A stretch of 10,148 bases of DNA, taken from NCBI GenBank assembly GCA_937864895.1, contig CALMDF010000378.1, positions 1-10,148 of the forward strand, given 5' to 3'. A program made the position numbers and the translations under genes. How positions within the stretch are numbered: position 1 is the first letter of the stretch; every line of letters starts with the position of its first letter. Shown here in pieces: positions 176 to 9,744 of the stretch. Origin of the DNA: an uncultured Holophagales bacterium (lineage in GTDB: Bacteria > Acidobacteriota > Thermoanaerobaculia > UBA5066). A model generated the notes under the pieces. The model was given only the letters and a program-made list of their open reading frames with translations. It ran no database searches and was not told the origin of the DNA.

Positions 176-1218
176 TCGCGGTCGACGAAGACGGCCCACG
201 CCACGTCTCCCGAGAGCCCCTCCTTCACGCCCCACGAGGTGAACGAGGCCTCGGAGAGCTTGTTGAGCCCGCCGTCCTGAGTTCCGACCCAGAGGGTCCC
301 CTCACGGTCTTCCAGAACGGCCAGGACGTTTCCGTTCGAGAGCCCCTCGGCGGACCCGAAGCGATCGATCCGGCCGTCGACGAGGCGGGCGAGCCCGGCC
401 GAGGTGCCGATCCAGACCGTTCCACGCCGGTCGCGCAGGGCGCAGCTCACGACCTCCGAGGGGAGCCCCTCCGCCGTCCCGACGGCCTGGACCCGCCCGT
501 CCCTGAGGATCCGGAGGCCGTGGGCCGTTCCGGCGAGGACCGTCCCGTCCGGGGCCGAGTGGAGGAAGAGCACCGGCTCTCGCACGCCGGCTCTCGCGAA
601 CAGCTTCCCCGTTCGACGGAAGAGACCCTCCGCCGTTCCGGCCCAGAGGGTCCCCCCCGGATCGACGGCCAGGGCCCGGACCGGTCCTGTGGGCAGCCCG
701 GTGGAGGCGCCCCAGGTCGCGAACGACCTCTCGTCGCGGCTCTGGAGACCGGCTTCCGTTCCTATCCAGAGGGTCCCGTCCTGATCCTCGGCGAGGGCCC
801 GGACGATGGCGCTCGCCAGGCCGTCGGTCGGGCCGAAGGTCCGGAAACGCCCCTCCTGCAGGACCGTGAGGCCGCCCCCCTCCGTTCCGAGCCAGAGGCG
901 TCCCTGGCGATCCTCGAGGAGCGAGAGGACCCTGTTGTGGCGGAGTTCCGGGGTGGAGGCCTTGTCGAAGACCGCGAAACGCGTCCCGTCGAAGCGAGCG
1001 AGGCCCTCCTGGGTACCGATCCACAGGTAACCGTCCCGCGTCTGCGCGAGCGCCTCGGCAGAGCTCTGGGGAAGCCCCTCCCGGGTCCGCCACACCTCGT
1101 GGCGGTACTGGGTGATCGCCTTGGCGGGGTCGAGAGCTGCCGCCCGGGATGACGGGAGGACGGCCAGGAAAAGGCCAAGGGCGAGAGTGCGCGGGCCAGG
1201 CGCCATGGCGCGGACCAT
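1..1218 (-). CDS. Two-component-regulator propeller protein, N-terminal part (runs off left edge; distal ~170 bases likely chimeric)
   Basis: The frame is open from position 1218 to position 1 with no stop. It begins MVRAMAPGPRTLALGLFLAV, a typical signal peptide that should end near Ser-Arg-Ala-Ala. The ATG at 1206 is an equally possible start four codons later; neither has a convincing Shine-Dalgarno site. After the signal comes the sequence ITQYRHEVWRTREGLPQSS, typical of acidobacterial propeller sensors. Seven repeats follow at about 40-residue spacing, each with a core such as DGYLWIGTQEGLARFDG, DRQGRLWLGTEGGGL, DQDGTLWIGTEAGL or DREGTLWVGTQDGGL. In this family the propeller is periplasmic and is normally followed by a Y_Y_Y domain, a membrane helix and a histidine kinase or GGDEF output. 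Here an eighth repeat starts (GLSGDVAWAVFVDREG) but never reaches its expected LWxGT core. The frame instead continues into sequence resembling a QseC-type kinase sensor domain (see finding). The propeller part is secure; the native C-terminus is not in this window. Confidence 0.85.
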   Translation of the reverse strand, partial: MVRAMAPGPRTLALGLFLAVLPSSRAAALDPAKAITQYRHEVWRTREGLPQSSAEALAQTRDGYLWIGTQEGLARFDGTRFAVFDKASTPELRHNRVLSLLEDRQGRLWLGTEGGGLTVLQEGRFRTFGPTDGLASAIVRALAEDQDGTLWIGTEAGLQSRDERSFATWGASTGLPTGPVRALAVDPGGTLWAGTAEGLFRRTGKLFARAGVREPVLFLHSAPDGTVLAGTAHGLRILRDGRVQAVGTAEGLPSEVVSCALRDRRGTVWIGTSAGLARLVDGRIDRFGSAEGLSNGNVLAVLEDREGTLWVGTQDGGLNKLSEASFTSWGVKEGLSGDVAWAVFVDREGAQLPRRPNASGFVELPVDGQVWRVYYLQSARAESLVAAGQRVHERDELVWSLIASQL

Positions 1219-1397
1219 ACAGGACAAGTCCGGCCGCGGCCCGGGCCACGGTCCCCACGTGTGGCGTTTCGCCTCGCACCCCCCCTGAAACGAACCTTCC
1301 CGCCGACCCTCCGTATCGCCTTATCGACCTTCGCCGGATTTCCCGCCCGAAGGAACACGTGCCCGTCCACGGGCTCGACAACCTCGGAGTGCGCGCC
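1219..1397. promoter_or_regulatory. Divergent intergenic region between propeller sensor and efflux operon
   Basis: About 180 bases separate the two divergent starts, so promoters for both directions should lie here, but no convincing sigma-70 -35/-10 pair can be read. Visible structure: two CACGTG palindromes exactly 100 bases apart (1256-1261 and 1356-1361), the first inside CCACGTGTGG, and a short perfect inverted repeat GCCCGT-CC-ACGGGC at 1361-1374. These could be operator half-sites, but short palindromes are common at this GC content. The minus frame stays open up to 1321 without a further start codon, so no additional coding is claimed. Confidence 0.4.
1386..1389 (+). promoter_or_regulatory. 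Ribosome binding site GGAG deciding the adaptor start
   Basis: GGAG lies 8 bases before the ATG at 1398. This selects 1398 as the start of the adaptor, over the longer open frame that reaches back to 1149 and would overlap the divergent gene's start. Confidence 0.7.
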
Positions 1398-2618
1398 ATG
1401 AGCAAGAAGTGGATCCTCGTCTCGGCCCTCGGAGTCACGCTCGTCGGAGCCGGCGTCGTCTTCGCCTCCCGCGGGGGCAAGGAGAAGCCGGGCGCCGCGG
1501 CCGACAACCTGCCTTTCCGGCTCGGAACCGTGACCGCCGAGGACCTGCAGGTGAGCGTGCGGGAGGTCGGTGTCGTCGACCCGGTCACGAAGGTCGAGGT
1601 GAAGTCGGTGGTGTCGGGTCGCGTCGTGAAGCTGAACGTGCGCGACGGCGCCGTCGTGAAGGCGGGCGACGTCCTCGCCGAGGTCGAGCCCGACGTCACG
1701 CAGGCCCAGTCCCTCTCGGAGGTCTCCGCGGGGCTGACCCAGGCCGAGCTCGGCCTCAAGGACGCCGAACGGCAGCTCCGCGCGCAGCAGGCGCTCTGGG
1801 ACGCCGGGCTCGTGGGACACGAGACCCTGAAGGACTTCGTGGCCCGGAGGGACGTCGCCGCCGAGTCGCTCCGGGCGGCGAAAGCCCGCTACCGCATCGT
1901 CGAGGACCACGGCATCCCGATCTCCTCGGCCGGCGCCTCCCAGGTGGCCCGGGTCGCGAGCCCGATGTCGGGCGTCGTCATCAGGAAGGGCGTCGAGCTC
2001 GGTGAGACCGTGACCTCCGGCGTCTCCTCGTTCAACGCGGGGACCGTCCTCTTCACCGTGGCCGACCTCAAGTCGCTCATCGTGAAGGTGAACCTGAACG
2101 AGGTGGACATCGCGAAGGTCTCCGTGGGGCAGCCGGTCCGGATCACCCTCGACGCCTACCCCCAGACGGTCTTCGGCGGGAAGGTCCGCTTCGTCGCCCC
2201 CGCGGCGACGCTCGTCGAGAAGATCAAGGTCTTCGAGAGCGAGATCGCCCTCGACGAGCTGGGAGACGCGTTCCGGACCGGCATGAGCGCGAACGTCGAG
2301 ATCCTGGGCGACAAGCGCGCCAAGGCCCTCTCCCTCCCGCTCGAGGCTCTCCAGAAAAGAGAGGGCGCGACGGTGGCCTACGTCCTGAAGAAGGACCTCG
2401 ACGTCAAGGCGATCGAGAAGGCGAAGGCCGGCCTCGCGGGCCGCGCGAAGTTCGTCTGGCTCTCCGAGAACTGGAAGGACTACTTCAACCCGGTCCCGGT
2501 CAGGGCGGGGATCGCGACGCTCGAGCGGGTGGAGGTCCTCGCCGGCCTCTCGCCCGGCGACAAGGTCTGCCTCGAAGACCCGACCCGCAAGAAGGTCGAG
2601 AAGGACGAGGACAACTGA
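1398..2618 (+). CDS. Periplasmic adaptor subunit (MacA/HlyD-type membrane fusion protein) of an ABC efflux system
   Basis: A 406-residue protein starting MSKKWILVSALGVTLVGAGV, with one N-terminal membrane anchor (about residues 5-24) and the rest periplasmic. Domains in order: the first half of a lipoyl/barrel-sandwich domain at about 60-98 (VEVKSVVSGRVVKLNVRDG); a short coiled-coil hairpin at about 100-170 (TQAELGLKDAERQLRAQQAL); the second lipoyl half at about 185-222 (ASPMSGVVIRKGVELGETV); a beta-barrel at about 225-305; and a membrane-proximal domain ending RVEVLAGLSPGDKV (377-390). In this family the adaptor links an inner-membrane pump to an outer-membrane channel. A roughly 30-residue Lys-rich stretch (about 332-365, containing SENWKDYF) sits between the last beta strands and is longer than in the usual MacA layout. 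First gene of a four-gene operon; the ATPase starts 3 nt after its stop, supporting a MacAB-like exporter. The exported substrate cannot be read from sequence. Confidence 0.92.
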   Translation: MSKKWILVSALGVTLVGAGVVFASRGGKEKPGAAADNLPFRLGTVTAEDLQVSVREVGVVDPVTKVEVKSVVSGRVVKLNVRDGAVVKAGDVLAEVEPDVTQAQSLSEVSAGLTQAELGLKDAERQLRAQQALWDAGLVGHETLKDFVARRDVAAESLRAAKARYRIVEDHGIPISSAGASQVARVASPMSGVVIRKGVELGETVTSGVSSFNAGTVLFTVADLKSLIVKVNLNEVDIAKVSVGQPVRITLDAYPQTVFGGKVRFVAPAATLVEKIKVFESEIALDELGDAFRTGMSANVEILGDKRAKALSLPLEALQKREGATVAYVLKKDLDVKAIEKAKAGLAGRAKFVWLSENWKDYFNPVPVRAGIATLERVEVLAGLSPGDKVCLEDPTRKKVEKDEDN

Positions 2619-2621
2619 GCC

Positions 2622-3311
2622 ATGAACGCCGTCATCGAGACGAGAGGCCTGACGAAGGTCTTCGGGCTGAACGGGAACGCCGTCCACGCCCTCCGGGGGA
2701 TCGACGTCGAGGTGGCGCGGGGCGAGTTCGTCGCGCTCGTCGGCCCGTCGGGCTCCGGGAAGTCGACCCTGATGGCCATCCTCGGCTGCCTCGACTCCCC
2801 CACCGCCGGGAGCTACTCCCTCGACGGGCAGCCCGTCGAGGGGCTCACGGGGAGCGCCCTGGCCCGCATCCGCAACGAGAAGGTCGGCTTCGTCTTCCAG
2901 ACCTACAACCTCCTCCCGAAGGCCTCCGTCGTCCGGAACGTCGAGCTCCCGATGCTCTACGCCGGCGTCGGCGGGCGCGAGCGGCGGGAGCGAGCGCTCG
3001 AGCTCCTCGAGAAGGTCGGGATCCCCGAGAAGGCGAACCGCCTCCCCTCCGAGCTCTCCGGCGGCCAGCGGCAGAGGGTCGCCATCGCGCGCGCCCTCGC
3101 GAACCGCCCCGCCCTCCTCCTCGCCGACGAGCCGACGGGCGCTCTCGACTCGAGGACGGGGGCCGAGGTCCTCGGCCTCTTCCAGGCGCTCCACCGGCAG
3201 GGGCACACGGTCGTCCTCGTGACCCACGACCCGTCCATCGCGGCCCTCGCGGGCCGGCGGGTCGAGCTCTACGACGGCCTCGTCCGCCTCCCCGAGGCGA
3301 AGGCGGCGTGA
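2622..3311 (+). CDS. ABC transporter ATP-binding protein, MacB/LolD type
   Basis: A 229-residue cytoplasmic ATPase. All nucleotide-binding motifs are visible: Walker A GPSGSGKST (41-49), Q-loop glutamine at Q93 in GFVFQTYNLLP, signature LSGGQRQRVAIARAL (145-159), Walker B LLLADEP (165-171) followed by TGALD, and the H-loop histidine H202 in LVTHD. The stretch ARIRNEKVGFVFQTYNLLP marks the MacB/LolD/FtsE-like branch, whose members work with FtsX-type permeases as mechanotransmission pumps rather than classical importers. Length matches stand-alone LolD/MacB-type ATPases. It starts 3 nt after the adaptor stop, and the first permease starts 1 nt after its own stop, so the genes are almost certainly co-transcribed and translationally coupled. 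Only one ATPase is present for two permeases, so a homodimer of it probably serves both. Confidence 0.95.
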   Translation: MNAVIETRGLTKVFGLNGNAVHALRGIDVEVARGEFVALVGPSGSGKSTLMAILGCLDSPTAGSYSLDGQPVEGLTGSALARIRNEKVGFVFQTYNLLPKASVVRNVELPMLYAGVGGRERRERALELLEKVGIPEKANRLPSELSGGQRQRVAIARALANRPALLLADEPTGALDSRTGAEVLGLFQALHRQGHTVVLVTHDPSIAALAGRRVELYDGLVRLPEAKAA

Positions 3312-3312
3312 C

Positions 3313-4563
3313 GTGCGGTTCTCCGGCGCCTTCCGCCAGCGGGTCGCCGAGGCCTGGATCGAGATCCGGGAGAACCTCGGCCGCTCGGCCCTCCAGGGGC
3401 TCGGCATCATGGTCGGCGTCGCGTCGGTCCTCGGCGGCTTCGCGATCTCCGACTCGAGCCAGCGCCGCTCCGACGAGAGGTGGCGCAAGCTCGGCGGCAT
3501 CGAGCGGCTGAACGTCCAGCCCGCCGCCGCGATGCGCGAGGGGAGCGTCTCGGCCCTTTCGCGCGCGAACCTCGGCCTGCGCAACGACGACGCCGTGGAC
3601 GGCGAGGAGATGAACCCGAAGGCCGTCCACGCGACGAGCGTCCAGCGCTTCGCCCGCGCCCGCCTCCGGTCCCCCCACGCCGACCAGGAACGGCAGATCA
3701 GCGGCATCGGGGGCGACTTCCTCCCGCTCAACGGGTACGACGTGGAGAGGGGGCGCGCCTTCTCCATGACGGCGCTCGCGAGCGGCGCCCCCGTCTGCCT
3801 CCTCGGTGCCGAGGCGGCCTCCGTCTTCTTTCCCTCGGGCGACGCCGTCGGGCAGACGGTGCGCCTGGGAGACTTCCCGGTCGTCGTCGTCGGCGTCCTC
3901 AGGGAGCTCGTCTTCCGGTGGAGGGACGGCGAGCCGAACGCCATGGCGTGGCGCAACCGGATCGTCGCGGTCCCGTCGGCCCTCGTGGCGGCGCGAATGC
4001 AGGGGGACCGCTACGAGCGCGTCGACCGGATGACGTTCAAGATCCCCGAGCTGAACCTCATGGAGGGCTTCGCGCGCGACCTCACCTCGCTCCTCAAGGC
4101 GAACCACCGCCAGCAGGACGACGTGAGGATCGACGACATCGCGGCCCGGATCCGCAAGCGCCAGAGCCAGGGTCAGGTCTACAACATGATCTTCATGCTC
4201 GCCGGGATCCTCTCGCTCATCGGCGGCGGCATGGTGAACGTGAACATCCAGCTCGCGAGCCTCAGCGAGCGCGTCCGGGAGGTCGGCGTCCGCATGGCCA
4301 TCGGCGCCTCGGGCGGCGAAGTCTTCAAGAGCTTCATGACCGAGGCGCTCCTCCTGACCTCGCTCGGGAGCGCCGTCGGCCTCGTCGCCGGCGTCGCGTT
4401 CGCGAAGTGGATCTGCCTCTTCCTCGACATCCCCCTCTTCCTTTCCCCGAAGAGCTTCTTCGCGGCCTTCTTCGTCGCGTCCGCCTTCGGCTTCGTCTTC
4501 GCCCTCTTCCCGGCCTGGAAGGCCTCCCGCCTCTCTCCCATGGAGGCCCTCCGGTATGAATAG
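3313..4563 (+). CDS. FtsX/MacB-type ABC transporter permease, first of two
   Basis: A 416-residue inner-membrane permease with a GTG start one base after the ATPase stop, indicating translational coupling. Topology is as in MacB: TM1 at about 24-46 (LQGLGIMVGVASVLGGFAI); a large periplasmic MacB_PCD-like domain of about 240 residues; then three helices at about 289-313, 341-372 and 380-402. The conserved cytoplasmic coupling segment LSERVREVGVRMAIGAS (317-333) and the C-terminal signature AWKASRLSPMEALRYE are present. No nucleotide-binding domain is fused, unlike canonical MacB, so the ATPase comes from the upstream gene. Its last codons overlap the start of the second permease by 8 nt. It differs clearly from that permease, so the pair looks like a heterodimer rather than a recent duplication. 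Confidence 0.92.
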   Translation: MRFSGAFRQRVAEAWIEIRENLGRSALQGLGIMVGVASVLGGFAISDSSQRRSDERWRKLGGIERLNVQPAAAMREGSVSALSRANLGLRNDDAVDGEEMNPKAVHATSVQRFARARLRSPHADQERQISGIGGDFLPLNGYDVERGRAFSMTALASGAPVCLLGAEAASVFFPSGDAVGQTVRLGDFPVVVVGVLRELVFRWRDGEPNAMAWRNRIVAVPSALVAARMQGDRYERVDRMTFKIPELNLMEGFARDLTSLLKANHRQQDDVRIDDIAARIRKRQSQGQVYNMIFMLAGILSLIGGGMVNVNIQLASLSERVREVGVRMAIGASGGEVFKSFMTEALLLTSLGSAVGLVAGVAFAKWICLFLDIPLFLSPKSFFAAFFVASAFGFVFALFPAWKASRLSPMEALRYE

Positions 4564-5860
4564 CCGCAGCCACGCCGCAGAGCTCCCTCTCGCCGCCGCC
4601 CCCGGGGTCCGCGACCGCCGCGACTCCCTCCCTGCCCGCCTCGCCCTCGTGGCCGAGGTCGTGCGGAGCGGCTTCCTCGAGCTCTGGGCGCACAAGCTCC
4701 GCTCGATCCTGACCCTGACGCTCCTCATGCTCGGCGTCTTCACTCTCGTCGTCCTGACGTCCGTCATCGACGGGGTCATCGACAAGGTCCAGACGGGCTT
4801 CGCGGGCCTCGCCTGGGACGGCACGGCCATCCTGCAGCCCCGAGACCCGAAGACGACGGAGGACCAGAAGCGTTTCGCGATGTCGCCCGGGCTCCGGTTC
4901 GACGACCTCCCGCGCCTCACGACGCCTCATCCCGGGGTGACGGCCTTCCTCCCCCGCGCCACGAAGCGGACCACGATCCGGGTGGCGGGGGGAACCGAGC
5001 GGGTCTTCGTCACCGGGGTGACCCCCGACTACGCCGTCTTCATGAACCGACCCGTCGCGCTCGGACGCGGCCTCACCGCCGACGACGCCCGCAGGCGGAG
5101 CACGGTGGCCGTCGTCGGCGCGACGCTCGCGTCGAAGCTCTTCGGCGGCGCCGACCCCGTCGGCCGGGACGTCGTCATCGACGGGGTCCCCTGGCGGATC
5201 GTCGGCGTGACGGCTCCCCTCATGATCTTCAGCGAGGAGCTCTACTACGACGCGAACGGCCTGATGGTGCCTCTCGAGACCTACGTCCTCCGGCTGGACG
5301 CCGACCGGAAGCTGACGCACCTCGCCGTGAAGCTCCGCGCGAAGCGGGACCTCGAGGAGGTCTCCTCGATGCTCCTCTCGCGGTCCCGCCAGGCGCACCA
5401 CGGGATCGAGGACACCGAGATCAAGGACCTCGACGCAGAGGCCGCCAAGGGCTACTCCCAGTTCATGGAGGAGATGCGGTCCTGGCGCGTCATCCTCTCC
5501 GCGCTCGCCGGGACCGTCCTCCTCGTGGGGGGCGTCGGCGTCCTCTCCGTGATGCTCATCTCCTACTCCTCGCGGCGCTACGAGATCGGCCTCCGGAAGG
5601 CGATGGGGGCCTCGGACACGGAGATCCTCTTCCAGTTCCTCCTCGAGGCGCTCGTCCTCGCCTCGATCGGCGCGCTCCTCGGCACCGTGGGCGGGGCCTT
5701 CCTCTGCCAGAAGCTCTCCCACTTCTTCCCGTGGGGCCTCGTCGTGAACCCGCTCGGCCTCGTGGCGGCCTGGGGAGTCGCCCTCGGGCTCGCCCTCGTG
5801 TTCGGGCTCTACCCCGCCCTCAGGGCCGCGAAGCTCTCGCCGATGGCGGCGATGCGGTGA
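4556..5860 (+). CDS. FtsX/MacB-type ABC transporter permease, second of two
   Basis: A 434-residue inner-membrane permease. The ATG overlaps the last 8 nt of the preceding permease (shared ATGAATAG). It has a longer cytoplasmic N-terminus of about 45 residues ending FLELWAHKLRSILTLTLLML, then TM1 (about 49-71), a periplasmic MacB_PCD-like domain with the typical RVFVTGVTPDYAVFMN, LGRGLTADD, VGATLASKLFGGADPVG and WRIVGV stretches, and three C-terminal helices (about 311-336, 358-384, 396-420). The coupling segment SSRRYEIGLRKAMGAS (338-353) and the terminal LYPALRAAKLSPMAAMR are diagnostic of the MacB/FtsX family. It closes the operon; the next gene is convergent. With the first permease, the ATPase and the adaptor it likely forms one exporter; function in antibiotic, lipoprotein or peptide export is undetermined. 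Confidence 0.93.
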   Translation: MNSRSHAAELPLAAAPGVRDRRDSLPARLALVAEVVRSGFLELWAHKLRSILTLTLLMLGVFTLVVLTSVIDGVIDKVQTGFAGLAWDGTAILQPRDPKTTEDQKRFAMSPGLRFDDLPRLTTPHPGVTAFLPRATKRTTIRVAGGTERVFVTGVTPDYAVFMNRPVALGRGLTADDARRRSTVAVVGATLASKLFGGADPVGRDVVIDGVPWRIVGVTAPLMIFSEELYYDANGLMVPLETYVLRLDADRKLTHLAVKLRAKRDLEEVSSMLLSRSRQAHHGIEDTEIKDLDAEAAKGYSQFMEEMRSWRVILSALAGTVLLVGGVGVLSVMLISYSSRRYEIGLRKAMGASDTEILFQFLLEALVLASIGALLGTVGGAFLCQKLSHFFPWGLVVNPLGLVAAWGVALGLALVFGLYPALRAAKLSPMAAMR

Positions 5861-5929: not shown

Positions 5930-7507
5930 TCAGGCCGGCTCCGCTCCCGGGCCGGCCGGAGCGGCAGCCGCTCCGCGGGCCACGAGCGCTTCCCCGAGCT
6001 CGCGGTCGCCGTGGGCGATGTGGCTCACGAGCCACTCCTTGAGCGACTGAAGGGTCAGCATCAGGCTCGCGCCGGTGGCGTGCGCCCGGATGCTGGCCAG
6101 GTCGGCGAGGAGCTTTCGGTGCTCCTGCCCATGAGCGAGCGCGCCCGGGTACCCGAACTTCTCCATCAGCCGCTCCTCGGTCTCGAAGTGGTGACGGGTG
6201 AAATCGACGACCTCGCCGAGCAGCACGGCGACGCGGTCCCGGTCCTGCCCGCTCTTGACGGCCTCGGCGACGCGGTTGAGGAGCTCCGCCAGGCGGGCGT
6301 GCTGCCGGTCGATGACGGGCACGCCGACATTCATATCGGCGCCCAGGTCGAGGAAGTCCTTCTTCGGGGACTCTCCCGTCGAGAGGTCCGGACGGTGGCA
6401 CGTGAAGCGGTTCTTTCCGTTCGCCTTGCTTTCGTACATGGCGGCGTCGGCCCGGCCGAGAAGCGCCTCGATGTCGTCCCCGTCCTCGACGCTCACGCAG
6501 ATGCCGATGCTGGCGCCCACCCGGCACTCGCGGGCGCCGAGGAGAAACGGTGCGTCCAGGGCGGCGAGCATCTTCCCCGCCACCGCGGCGGCCGAATCCC
6601 TGTCGCCGAGGCCGCTCAGGAGGACCACGAACTCGTCGCCCCCGATCCGCGCTACCGTGTCCGTCTCGCGGACGCATCCCTGGAGGCGTTGCCCGACCGC
6701 ACGCAGGAGCGCGTCGCCGGTCTCGTGGCCGTGGACGTCGTTCACCGCCTTGAAGCCGTCCAGGTCGAGCATGAGGAGGGCGAACGGCTCCCGGCCCCGC
6801 CTCCCGTGGGCGAGGGCCTGGCCCAGCCGGTCGTAGAGGAGAGCGCGGTTCGGGAGGTCGGTCAGCGGGTCGTAGAACGCGAGGTACTTCAGCTGCCGCT
6901 GCGCCCGGACCCGCTCGGTGACGTCCAGCGCCATTCCCACGATCGCGGGATGCCCGTCGTGGTCGATCTTTTTTCCGCTCATCTCGACGTCGATGAGGGC
7001 GCCGTCCTTCCGGATCGCGCGAAAACCGGTCGCGCGGTCCTCGTCGCGTCCCTCGAGCCGGCTCCGGACCATTTCCCGGATCGACTCGCGGTCGGCCTCG
7101 GCGGCGACGTCCGAAAGGCCCATGCCGGCCGTCATCTCCTTCGCCCCGTGCCCGAAGATCTCCGAGAAGCGCGCGTTGACCCAGGCGAACCTGTCATCCT
7201 GGAGGATGCAGATCCCGACGGTGGACTGCTCGAGGAGGCCGCGGAGCTTCTCCTCCGCGGCCCGGCGCTCGCACACCTCGCGGCGCAGGCGGCGATTGAG
7301 GCGCAAGAAGTACGCAGCGACGAATCCGCCGGCCACGGCCAGGCCGAACAGTCCCACGAGAGACGGGCCGAGCCAGCCCCGATCGGTCCCCGGGACGGGA
7401 CCGGAGGGCCCCGAAGCGGCGGGGAGGCCTGTCAGGGCGATGCCGAGGGCCAGGAGACCGACTCCCCATCTCCCACCCACGCTCCCTCTGGCACGGCCTG
7501 TACTCAC
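5930..7507 (-). CDS. Membrane-anchored PAS-GGDEF diguanylate cyclase with C-terminal hemerythrin domain
   Basis: A 525-residue protein with a GTG start preceded by GAGG at 5-nt spacing. Two N-terminal membrane helices (about 14-33 and 47-69) are followed by a short helical linker and a PAS domain (about 86-200; SEIFGHGAKEM and the PAC-like RAIRKDGALIDVEMSGKKI, ending ALDVTERVRAQRQLKYLA). The GGDEF domain (about 206-370) has DPLTDLPNRALLYDRL, DLDGFKAVND, the intact active site GGDEF (289-293), and an intact inhibitory I-site RETD (280-283) five residues before it. This predicts an active, feedback-inhibited c-di-GMP synthase. The C-terminus (about 390-510) is a bacteriohemerythrin with all expected di-iron ligands visible: H403 in VIDRQH, H440 and E444 in HHFETEE, H459 and H463 in HGQEH, H496 and D501 in HIAHGD. 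A di-iron, O2- or redox-responsive input is therefore likely. No EAL domain is present. It is monocistronic as far as visible. Confidence 0.93.
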   Translation of the reverse strand: MSTGRARGSVGGRWGVGLLALGIALTGLPAASGPSGPVPGTDRGWLGPSLVGLFGLAVAGGFVAAYFLRLNRRLRREVCERRAAEEKLRGLLEQSTVGICILQDDRFAWVNARFSEIFGHGAKEMTAGMGLSDVAAEADRESIREMVRSRLEGRDEDRATGFRAIRKDGALIDVEMSGKKIDHDGHPAIVGMALDVTERVRAQRQLKYLAFYDPLTDLPNRALLYDRLGQALAHGRRGREPFALLMLDLDGFKAVNDVHGHETGDALLRAVGQRLQGCVRETDTVARIGGDEFVVLLSGLGDRDSAAAVAGKMLAALDAPFLLGARECRVGASIGICVSVEDGDDIEALLGRADAAMYESKANGKNRFTCHRPDLSTGESPKKDFLDLGADMNVGVPVIDRQHARLAELLNRVAEAVKSGQDRDRVAVLLGEVVDFTRHHFETEERLMEKFGYPGALAHGQEHRKLLADLASIRAHATGASLMLTLQSLKEWLVSHIAHGDRELGEALVARGAAAAPAGPGAEPA

Positions 7508-7599: not shown

Positions 7600-8757
7600 T
7601 CAGCGGACGATCCCGAGGTCCTTGAGGAGAGCTTCGCCGAGCTTGCCTGCGTCGATCGGCTCGGCGGGTTTCGTGGCGGCCTCCTGCGCCTTCGCGACCG
7701 CCTCCTCCTCCTGCTTCACCTTCGCCTGGAAGTCCTTCATCTCCGCGGAGGCCTGCGCGCGCCGGGCGAGCTCCTCCTGCTCGGCGAGCCGGAGCTTCTC
7801 ACGGTTCTCGCGGATGCTGGCGAGCTGCTCCTTCACGTCCGGCCGTCGGGCCGCCGCCTTGTTGGCGGAGACGTGCGCCTCGAGCTTGTCGAGCTCGGCG
7901 AAGAGGGGGCCGAGGTTCCAGAGTCCCTCCTCCGGCCTGGCCGGCTCCTCGGGGGGCTTGACGGAGAAGGTCCAGGTGAAGTCGCAGGAAGGGCAGCATA
8001 CGTAGCTCCACTGGCGGCTCAGGCAGTCGGCGCCGACACAGCCGAGTAGGGTCGCCGGGGAGAGGGGCACCTTCGCGGTGCACTTCGGGCAGCTCACTTT
8101 CGACGGGACCTCGAGCGCGCAGCCCCCGCACTTGCGCTCCTCGGGCGCCGGTGCGGCGATGCCGATGATCATGTTTCCCACGATCTCGGAGTTCGCGTAC
8201 TTCGGCTGCCACAGCTCGAGAAGCTCCCCGTAGGGAATCCGGTGATCGGGCCCGAAGTAGGGGTCGTGGACGATGACGTGCCCGGCGTCCATTCCGGTGA
8301 GGACGGTGTAGTGCCCCGCCGGGCCGTCGGCCCTGAGCCGATGGTTCAGGATGGCGCGAATGCCGCGCTGCTGGCAGGTGAGGATCGTCTGCAGGGGGTG
8401 GGTCGCCTGGATCGCCACGGCCGCATAGCCTCTCTCGAGGGCGTCCTTCACCATCAGGTGGGTGACACAGGCCGGGTGGCCGAGCCGGTTCGGCTTCGAG
8501 ATACGGGGCATGATCTCGGCCTGCGTCACGTCGGTGCCCCGTCGGGCCCCGCGCCGCCGGTCCACGCCGTCGAGGGGTCCTGCCTGCCGGTTCCGTCGGT
8601 CCTTGCGTCCCCCGGCGGCCAAAGGCTCGCCCGCCGGGGCCGGCGGGCGAGGGAGAGACCGATAGACCATGGCGAGGGCCGCCGCCCCGCACGTCCGGTT
8701 GCTCTCGCGATCGGTCTGCCCCTCGTACGGGATGGCCTGGCCGTGGTGTCGGGTCAT
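7600..8757 (-). CDS. C39-like (papain-fold) cysteine peptidase with two zinc-ribbon-like clusters and coiled coil, candidate T6SS cargo
   Basis: A 385-residue protein whose start is supported by AGGAG at 8766-8770, 8 nt before the ATG. The N-terminal domain resembles C39-like_2 peptidases: nucleophile C23 in ESNRTCGAAALAMVY, histidine H149 in GPAGHYTVLTG and aspartate D165 in VIVHDPYFG, together a complete catalytic set. The core also has THLMVKDALERGYAAVAIQA and RAILNHRL, as in this family. An extra Arg/Pro/Gly-rich stretch (about 36-75) interrupts it. Cysteines C210, C213, C223, C226 (CxxC-x9-CxxC) form a zinc-ribbon-like knuckle, and C240, C245, C254/C255, C258 a second. Residues about 285-362 are charged, Ala/Glu/Lys-rich and predicted coiled coil. 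There is no signal peptide. It follows vgrG, a DUF6931-like gene and PAAR on the same strand, 49 nt after PAAR, so it may be delivered by the spike (murein, lipid or protein target unknown) or may process a cassette protein. The peptidase fold is fairly secure; the role is inference. Confidence 0.85.
   Translation of the reverse strand: MTRHHGQAIPYEGQTDRESNRTCGAAALAMVYRSLPRPPAPAGEPLAAGGRKDRRNRQAGPLDGVDRRRGARRGTDVTQAEIMPRISKPNRLGHPACVTHLMVKDALERGYAAVAIQATHPLQTILTCQQRGIRAILNHRLRADGPAGHYTVLTGMDAGHVIVHDPYFGPDHRIPYGELLELWQPKYANSEIVGNMIIGIAAPAPEERKCGGCALEVPSKVSCPKCTAKVPLSPATLLGCVGADCLSRQWSYVCCPSCDFTWTFSVKPPEEPARPEEGLWNLGPLFAELDKLEAHVSANKAAARRPDVKEQLASIRENREKLRLAEQEELARRAQASAEMKDFQAKVKQEEEAVAKAQEAATKPAEPIDAGKLGEALLKDLGIVR
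8533..8652 (-). repeat. Arg/Pro/Gly-rich in-frame insert in the peptidase, with perfect 12-bp inverted repeat at 8626-8651
   Basis: CTCGCCCGCCGG (8626-8637) and CCGGCGGGCGAG (8640-8651) are perfect reverse complements separated by two G's. They lie in codons 36-44 of the peptidase. The surrounding roughly 40 codons encode low-complexity sequence (PRPPAPAGEP, then RKDRRNRQ and RRRGARRG) where C39-like relatives, from memory, pass directly from the helix after the catalytic Cys to a short loop and the TQAEI segment. The frame stays open across it. It could be a captured small palindromic element or a divergent surface loop. Confidence 0.5.
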
Positions 8758-8806: not shown

Positions 8807-9103
8807 TCATGCGAGGACGTTGAAGCAGCCGAAGACGATGACCCCGCCGTGGACGGTCGCGTCGCCCATCCGGGCGATCGGGAGGCCGCCCACGAGGACC
8901 ATCGGGTTGCAGCCGACGATCATGTCGGGGACCGTCCCGACGCAGGTGACGACGTCGGTGGCCCGGGCCGCGGGAAGGCCCCCGATGAGGACGTTCGGAC
9001 AGCCGGGCGCGGTGATCGGGCCGCCGACGTGCGGGGTTGCGGTCACCGGGTCGATCATCGGGCAGGTGTGGAGGTCGGTGAGGCGGGCGGCAGGCTGAGG
9101 CAT
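8807..9103 (-). CDS. PAAR-domain spike-tip protein of a type VI secretion system
   Basis: A 98-residue stand-alone PAAR protein, the usual size for a bare tip without an effector extension. It contains the name-giving motif almost literally twice: PAARATD (44-50) and PIARMGD (75-81), followed by ATVHGGVIVFGCFNVL. Candidate zinc ligands are H12, H25, H85 and C93. PAAR proteins form the conical zinc-bound point on the VgrG trimer and recruit effectors. The start ATG at 9103 is preceded by AGGGAGG (9109-9115), which touches the stop codon of the upstream gene, so translation is probably coupled. The long open frame upstream to 9772 in this register is a shadow of the neighbouring gene. As PAAR has no toxin domain of its own, an effector is expected nearby; the next gene is the peptidase. 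Confidence 0.93.
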   Translation of the reverse strand: MPQPAARLTDLHTCPMIDPVTATPHVGGPITAPGCPNVLIGGLPAARATDVVTCVGTVPDMIVGCNPMVLVGGLPIARMGDATVHGGVIVFGCFNVLA

Positions 9104-9114
9104 CGGGCCCTCCC

Positions 9115-9744
9115 TCAGAATCCCCAGGTTTTGCCGGCGGCCTTCGGCTTCACGTCGGGCCAGGTGACCCTGCCCTCGGCGACGCCCGTGCCGAGCTCGA
9201 CGAAAAGGCGCTGGGTCTCCTCGATCCCGGCCCCGGCCCCTTTGACGGAGGCGAGAAGGACGGCTCCCGCGACCCCCTTGGCCGGGAGGTAGGGCCCGGG
9301 GACGACAGGGGGCACCTTCGGCATCGGGGGCGCGAGGGTCCCGCCCGTGAAAGTGACCGCCGTCGCGAGGCCCCCTGCGGGGGTCTCTATTCCCGCGGCC
9401 TCCGCTGGCGCCCTGGCCGCGTTCCGGTTCGCGTCGGACGGGTCGAGGACCCAGGAGACGGCAGCCTTGAGGGCCGAGGCCTCGGCCGCCGGCAGCGCCG
9501 CGTCGCCCGAGGCGTGCTTGACGCAGAGCGAGCCCCACCAGACCGCTTCGCGGTGGGGCAGGGCGTGGGCGAGGAACCGGATCGCGGTCCGGAACTGCTT
9601 CTGCTCGACGAGCTCGTCGAGGAGCTCCCTCGGGGAGGTCTTCGGACTGAGGAGGGGCTTCGCCTCGGGGTCGAGGTCGAAGTGCTCGCAGACCTGTGCG
9701 GCGGTCGTGGCGCGCACTTTCCGGAGCGGCGGTGCGGCGGGCAT
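9115..9744 (-). CDS. T6SS-associated protein of unknown function (DUF6931-like)
   Basis: A 209-residue protein with start ATG at 9744 and AAGGAAGGA just upstream. The N-terminal half is helical and includes SPRELLDELVEQKQFRTAIR and ALPHREAVWWGSLCVKH (61-77). This Pro-His/Arg-Arg-Glu-Ala-Val-Trp-Trp motif, with a following helical segment ending in AVSWVLDPSDANR, is what I recall for the DUF6931 family found beside VgrG/PAAR genes; no search was made. The C-terminal half is Pro/Ala/Gly-rich (TLAPPMPKVPPVVPGPY) and then has one amphipathic helix (AGAGIEETQRLFVELG). There is no signal peptide or membrane segment. It lies between the vgrG end (24-nt gap) and PAAR (11-nt gap), so it is probably an adaptor or chaperone for loading PAAR or cargo onto the spike. 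That role is inference. Confidence 0.75.
   Translation of the reverse strand: MPAAPPLRKVRATTAAQVCEHFDLDPEAKPLLSPKTSPRELLDELVEQKQFRTAIRFLAHALPHREAVWWGSLCVKHASGDAALPAAEASALKAAVSWVLDPSDANRNAARAPAEAAGIETPAGGLATAVTFTGGTLAPPMPKVPPVVPGPYLPAKGVAGAVLLASVKGAGAGIEETQRLFVELGTGVAEGRVTWPDVKPKAAGKTWGF

Follow-up and report, generated by a model that had tools for sequence, protein, structure and literature searches.

Introduction

The described proteins closest to the one reported here are the C39 leader proteases (the peptidase domains of LahT150, ComA and PCAT1) and the papain-like toxins of type VI secretion systems (T6SSs) and contact-dependent inhibition (CDI) systems (Cpe1, EvpQ and TsaP; Tox-PLC39). 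In the passages of PMC6363468 that concern LahT, a -4/-7 spacing is known; those of PMC12136450 that concern Cpe1 mention an adjacent putative immunity gene for most toxins of this type and 15 homologues from distant phyla. As for T6SS spikes, the relevant passages of PMC13373197 describe TvpC of Serratia as a beta-prism holding PAAR as VgrG does. Searches of the open-access PMC literature found no paper on a producer-encoded protease processing a T6SS spike and no paper on DUF6931; the sole paper found on VgrG cleavage concerns a host caspase (PMC11856931). The present work deals with a protein of 385 aa encoded at 7600..8757 (minus strand) of a stretch of 10,148 nucleotides (contig CALMDF010000378.1 of assembly GCA_937864895.1), the whole of which is hereafter called the window, from an uncultured Holophagales bacterium (Acidobacteriota; genome G000). 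A first-pass annotation had proposed that this protein is a C39-like peptidase and either a T6SS cargo effector or a maturation protease for another effector.

Results

The present analysis gives about an even chance that this protein is a stand-alone C39 protease that serves specifically an orphan T6SS spike cassette and matures VgrG before firing. The cassette consists of a VgrG with a C-terminal tail (tailed VgrG), a detached spike-tip protein (BHP), a DUF6931 protein, a PAAR protein and the C39 protein. Acting in the producing cell ahead of firing, the C39 protein would dock on spike parts via its cysteine-cluster/helix tail and cut VgrG at the motif GG(G)SGGG, located between the core and a C-terminal tail that carries hydrophobic segments. 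The VgrG core would then be ready for mounting the separate spike tip and PAAR, and the tail, freed as its own chain, could be a membrane-active payload or a placeholder. The observations behind this proposal are the intact active site, the fold model, the operon order, the co-occurrence of tail and protease, the constancy of the glycine site and the gene splits at this site; from the pairing of the protease with a conserved glycine site, we infer that it cuts the site.

The open reading frame (ORF), Pfam, homologues, alignment, structure model and fold matches identify the product of this last gene of the cassette as a cysteine protease of the C39/double-glycine type with zinc-ribbon-type clusters and a helical tail. 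Its protease domain, delimited by residue invariance and structural alignment (residues 7-205; 8143..8739, minus strand), contains the active-site codons of Gln14 (8718-8716), Cys23 (8691-8689), His149 (8313-8311) and Asp165 (8265-8263). The C39_2 family of Pfam matches residues 8-167 over its curated cut-off (28.8 vs. 24 bits) and the classical family PF03412 (Peptidase_C39) lies just under its own (20.7 vs. 22 bits). In an alignment of 40 sequences, window protein included, 39 members are matched by PF03412 and 37 by C39_2 (E ≤ 0.01); Arg21, Cys23, Gly24, His149 and Asp165 never vary and Gln14 is kept in at least 90% of the rows. Furthermore, every one of the 23 fetched rows covering this part (20 distinct loci, among them the planctomycete forms) has all four active-site residues intact. 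The structure model has a C39/papain fold according to Foldseek and structural alignment, and its VIA-align alignment to LahT (6mpz_D) covers residues 4-204. The C39-like peptidase with Cys23, His149 and Asp165 and a papain-like geometry that had been read from the letters is thus borne out by the C39_2 match, the invariant triad and the fold model. Given the intact active-site residues and this fold, the protein is probably an active protease.

At least 252 homologues (E ≤ 0.001) were detected among about 5.8 billion proteins by a search that scored only the 7997 candidates sharing most words, and all 120 homologues listed have E ≤ 5.3e-85; this family is therefore real and more than a product of chance. 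Among the matches listed, the closest named relative of the window protein belongs to a metagenome-assembled genome of Acidobacteriota (locus L007, 61% identity). Searches of genomes of the phylum (297 with the window protein and 396 with the alignment) found full-length matches only in genome G000 itself; the weak partial C39 matches in five and 12 other genomes, respectively, were taken as other C39 proteins. A scan of viral contigs gave two weak partial matches. The lineage of the window protein carries an insert around residues 36-78, modelled with low confidence; its N-terminus, read as free of a signal peptide by the first-pass annotation, appears by eye to be hydrophilic. No ABC domain was matched by Pfam in the window protein or the 40 members, indicating a stand-alone protein and not a classical AMS/PCAT exporter domain.

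The protease domain is followed by two four-cysteine clusters whose pattern is of zinc-ribbon type (residues 210/213/223/226 and 240/245/255/258; 7984..8130, minus strand). These two clusters, pointed out by the first-pass annotation, stand insofar as all eight cysteines are invariant in the 40 rows, but Pfam finds no zinc family in the 40 members (E ≤ 0.01) and the structure model holds no metal; judging from the cysteine pattern, they are candidate zinc-binding sites. The coiled-coil tail that had been predicted further downstream corresponds in the model to one long helix, a coiled-coil candidate (residues 306-362; 7672..7842, minus strand), and precedes a conserved C-terminal element (residues 366-382; 7612..7662, minus strand; consensus about PLDGxALGxALLKxLG) in which D369, L373 and G382 are invariant. 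The long helix and this element go with the spike cassette. When sequences of the PDB were searched with the alignment profile, the best row was a C-type lectin whose match fell on the coiled-coil region and was taken as coiled-coil noise, and the second was the Cpe1 entry 9l5u (E 0.0044).

Directly upstream of the C39 gene in the window and also on the minus strand are found a gene encoding a PAAR protein, i.e., a spike cap (8807..9103, start codon read from the sequence; Pfam PAAR_motif, 73 bits), a gene encoding a DUF6931 protein, a companion of VgrG-PAAR operons (9115..9744; PF22011, 139.8 bits), and a BHP gene that has lost its 5′ end at the contig end (9769..10146). The first-pass annotation had read this side as VgrG-DUF6931-PAAR; PAAR and DUF6931 are confirmed, but its "VgrG" is an incomplete BHP. 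Indeed, the ORF at 10146-9769 matches the BHP profile (108.6 bits, profile positions 81-170), has no Pfam family over cut-off and reaches the NCBIfam TssI model only far under its cut-off (E 0.0056); its assignment as a VgrG was rejected since no VgrG family passes the cut-off and BHP matches instead. BHP is a separate spike-tip-like family of about 160 aa, encoded between VgrG and DUF6931 in other loci; the BHP of locus L011 (8513-8989) has no Pfam family over cut-off. Another contig of genome G000, C409 (locus L136), carries a tailed VgrG gene followed by the start of a BHP gene, whose product is nearly the same protein as the window BHP in the shared part. Since the two proteins differ slightly and the contig ends do not overlap exactly in DNA sequence, C409 holds either a second copy of the locus or its counterpart in a strain variant. 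Upstream of this tailed VgrG gene (170-3093 of C409), inspection by eye suggests an ORF for a multi-haem cytochrome-like protein (CxxCH) and one for an outer-membrane beta-barrel-like protein.

A scan of the genome collection gave at least 10 C39 loci, to which whole genomes added more. The order VgrG, BHP, DUF6931, PAAR, C39 is found in eight of the nine loci spanning VgrG to C39 (L007, L008, L011, L012, L054, L055, L056 and L057), the ninth (L053) being devoid of PAAR; the window, L052 and L063 show as much of the cassette as their contigs allow and L016 begins inside the gene. In L011, VgrG, DUF6931 and PAAR are all recognised by Pfam, as is VgrG in L007. All 12 long-form loci whose upstream side is visible have a spike gene beside C39, PAAR in every case except L053, where it is DUF6931. 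The link of the long-form C39 protein to T6SS spike genes is therefore strongly supported, and its homologues do not lie mostly away from T6SS genes; the short forms of planctomycetes, which lack the long helix, are however mostly away from PAAR. In the Bryobacteraceae genome G397, five C39 matches lie on five contigs (L008, L016, L052, L053 and L054), including two contig-end halves that may be one gene. One of the cassettes has a VgrG with an internal deletion that leaves site and tail in place, and one copy is flanked by an integrase-like ORF, so that this cassette seems to be multiplying.

DUF6931 is over cut-off in 40 of 250 genomes of the order of G397, often, by eye, on the contig that carries TssB. 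We fetched 20 loci from 20 of the 35 genomes in which it occurs without C39. These loci encode VgrG and DUF6931, plus PAAR where contig and gene caller allow, and the genes after PAAR vary by locus and look, by eye, metabolic or like T6SS core genes. In three of them, the BHP profile matches the C-terminal end of the VgrG cluster itself. Compared with these operons, the C39 cassette shows three linked differences: a VgrG C-terminal tail with hydrophobic segments, the tip as a separate gene (BHP) and C39 after PAAR. Since DUF6931 is common in genomes without C39, it was rejected as a C39-specific immunity protein.

The tail profile matches six of these 250 genomes, namely the five with C39 and G454, in which the match covers 40 residues of a VgrG without tail or motif (Fisher p 7.7e-10 for the co-occurrence of tail and C39). 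The tail is also present in G000, G396, G400 and G401 and, according to the same profile, absent from the eight planctomycete genomes holding the short C39 form. In G399, the two are on different contigs, the tail at the end of its contig and C39 (L063) near the start of the other. As tail and C39 belong to one cassette, the p-value shows that they are not found apart, whereas DUF6931 occurs without them.

A search with residues 565-804 of VgrG collected 52 tailed VgrGs. In each of them, a glycine motif immediately precedes the tail, nearly always as GG(G)SGGG or a longer run; 51 of these motifs contain serine and one is plain glycine. When aligned on the core, they have proline at -3 in 40 of the 52 and glycine or threonine at -1 in 51. 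No such motif occurs in the 18 VgrG ORFs (some partial) of the DUF6931 loci devoid of C39.

In two genomes, G570 and G399, the gene is split at this site (loci L056 and L134). The VgrG ORF of G570 ends immediately ahead of the motif, and the tail gene that follows has its own start codon and encodes 15 residues before GGGSGGG; in G399, the core closes with ...IPGGS-stop and the tail gene likewise has a start of its own. Searching with the G570 tail gene gave 61 proteins. A script sorted them into 12 in which a VgrG part precedes the tail, 37 stand-alone tails with an N-terminal glycine motif, eight stand-alone tails classed as without motif and four unassigned. Inspection by eye shows that the 37 include one VgrG fragment, P0209, and probably a second, P0231, and that the starts of P0190 and P0199 may be wrong. 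In 31 of the 37, the motif begins at residue 16-19; the exact core is present in 32 of 35 (P0173-P0208 without P0204), with proline at -3 in 22 of those 32. Across 30 stand-alone tails, agreement is 18% in the leader and 40% in the first 45 or so tail residues.

A LahT-type -4/-7 spacing is found at 38 of the 52 sites, several registers being tried per site, against 21 of 370 other GG pairs of the same proteins, and the site segment is unlikely to form a LahT-type helix. A glycine motif also occurs near the N-terminus of BHP in eight of the 11 loci where this part is visible (present in L007, L012, L053, L054, L056, L057, L063 and L136; absent from L008, L011 and L055). The structure model of VgrG has a mean pLDDT of 65, below 50 through most of the spike and the glycine region, and thus says nothing on the site.

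Discussion

We consider as tentative, somewhat short of an even chance, the full scenario in which a T6SS spike is matured by proteolysis: the double-glycine protease of the cassette would cut VgrG at GG(G)SGGG in the producer, so that a membrane-type tail comes off and the core can take up a separate tip and PAAR, while some lineages would have split the gene there instead, partly keeping a bacteriocin-like leader-plus-GG form. Among the two roles proposed by the first-pass annotation, maturation fits better because of the glycine site in all tailed VgrGs and the co-occurrence of tail and C39, the likely substrate being the VgrG tail and not a separate effector; the cargo effector is the weaker of the two because there is no recurrent downstream immunity gene and C39 is conserved full-length in one fixed cassette.

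Several points weigh against maturation by cleavage at the glycine site. Glycine-serine stretches are common flexible linkers. However, a linker needs no constant motif once the parts it joined are separate genes, whereas a processing or docking signal does, so that something should recognise the site; this constancy in split genes is the main argument for recognition, for which the C39 protease is the obvious candidate. Among the eight stand-alone tails classed as motif-free, P0197 has a relaxed form and seven start at or near the tail, and P0194 and P0201 also lack the exact GGxGG core. The stand-alone tails are protein-database entries without genomic context. The related sequences in the glycine-site counts are not independent, and the search region, the tail profile and the G570 query all contain the site and so favour motif-bearing relatives, although seven motif-free tails were still found. 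The co-occurrence of tail and C39 is partly trivial since they belong to one cassette. The top row of Foldseek is the phytochelatin synthase Alr0975, which is no double-glycine protease. Lastly, the short C39 forms of planctomycetes have the same active site, with PAAR adjacent in only one of eight loci and no tailed VgrG, and the C39 domain therefore has other uses. Their eight cysteines are all kept in four of the eight loci, one being cut by the contig and three lacking some. In the planctomycete locus L013 (9545-10663), the gene directly after PAAR encodes a short C39-cysteine-cluster protein, and the genome has no TssB match: a spike cap and a protease without evident T6SS.

The alternative that survives best, although we judge it rather unlikely, is a cargo effector like Cpe1 (Tox-PLC39). 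Attached to PAAR/VgrG through its tail and injected, it would cut essential proteins of the target cell at double-glycine sites (GyrB/ParE for Cpe1) or act on eukaryotic prey. It would explain a gene directly after PAAR, the usual position of an effector, and a C39 fold with an intact active site, and it also tells against maturation that T6SS-linked papain-like toxins of this type, according to the passages of PMC12136450 considered here, are encoded downstream of PAAR/VgrG, cut at double glycines and in some cases come from Acidobacteriota. However, while most Cpe1-type toxins precede a putative immunity gene, comparison of up to three ORFs per locus, on either strand, in 12 loci (blastp, E ≤ 1e-3, crude ORF caller) revealed no recurrent gene family 3′ of C39, bearing in mind that highly diverged immunity proteins could escape this comparison and that the ORF caller passed over the true next gene of the window. 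Directly downstream of C39, the window encodes a PAS-GGDEF-hemerythrin protein identified by Pfam, a diguanylate cyclase with a C-terminal hemerythrin domain (5930-7507, minus strand). Conservation of C39 in full length in one fixed cassette is not what a cargo effector would predict either, nor does a constant gene appear, by eye, in the same slot of the VgrG-DUF6931-PAAR operons that lack C39. This alternative survives nonetheless, since an effector directed against eukaryotes would not require an immunity gene.

The presence of TssB in all eight long-form acidobacterial genomes other than G000, and in one of the eight planctomycetes with the short form, could also be taken in favour of a cargo effector. 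However, in one order TssB passes its cut-off in 157 of 250 genomes, so that its co-occurrence supports little by itself, and no TssB was found in G000 (75% complete); co-occurrence as proof of T6SS use was therefore set aside.

An adaptor or chaperone of the spike, whose C39 fold would bind the glycine-rich segment of VgrG or BHP uncut, with cysteine clusters and helix for docking, is improbable. The inactive C39-like domain of HlyB, which binds its substrate, provides a model for such a role, and the fixed cassette and the conserved non-catalytic parts (cysteine clusters and C-terminal element) would suit it, but a pure binder would not need the Gln, Cys, His and Asp kept in every row that holds the active site. 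Other spike accessory proteins, the Tvp complexes, are known from the passages of PMC13373197 considered here.

A housekeeping double-glycine protease that is a mere bystander beside PAAR, serving for example the MacAB-like exporter that the window seems by eye to encode (1149-5860, plus strand; genes for an HlyD-type fusion protein, an ABC ATPase and two FtsX/MacB-type permease-like proteins in an apparent operon), would fit the usual association of C39 domains with ABC exporters and the planctomycete short forms mostly without PAAR, but is very improbable given that spike genes adjoin C39 in each of the 12 long-form loci whose upstream side can be seen and that this operon is on the opposite strand, a distant permease-like match between the window and L053 being the sole recurrence 3′ of C39.

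If the spike is indeed matured by the C39 protease, double-glycine leader processing and contractile injection, thought to be separate, would become linked, an unnamed acidobacterial family would gain a function and VgrGs with membrane-type tails a reason. If the protein is a toxin instead, it would represent a new architecture of the Cpe1 class without recognisable adjacent immunity gene.

Compared with LahT150, ComA and PCAT1, the window protein is devoid of ABC transporter fusion and carries zinc-ribbon-type clusters and a helical tail; its candidate substrate would be a T6SS spike protein with a Pro/Thr/Gly context and not the Leu-12/Glu-8/Leu-7 pattern given in the passages on these proteases. 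As in Cpe1-type toxins, the C39 gene follows PAAR directly, both here and in eight of the nine loci running from VgrG to C39; unlike them, it has no recurrent downstream immunity candidate, encodes the extra cysteine-cluster and helix parts and belongs to a fixed cassette with a tailed VgrG. The papain-like processing peptidases of polymorphic toxins, for which the passages of PMC3482391 considered here propose a role in freeing parts of the toxin during its delivery, form domains within the toxin, whereas C39 is here a separate protein. The likeness to Tvp complexes, which is one of description, lies in a detached VgrG-tip-like protein, comparable to BHP, encoded beside VgrG and PAAR; unlike this cassette, Tvp uses DUF2169/DUF4150 proteins, and the passages of PMC13373197 considered here include no spike-cutting protease such as the one proposed for the C39 cassette.
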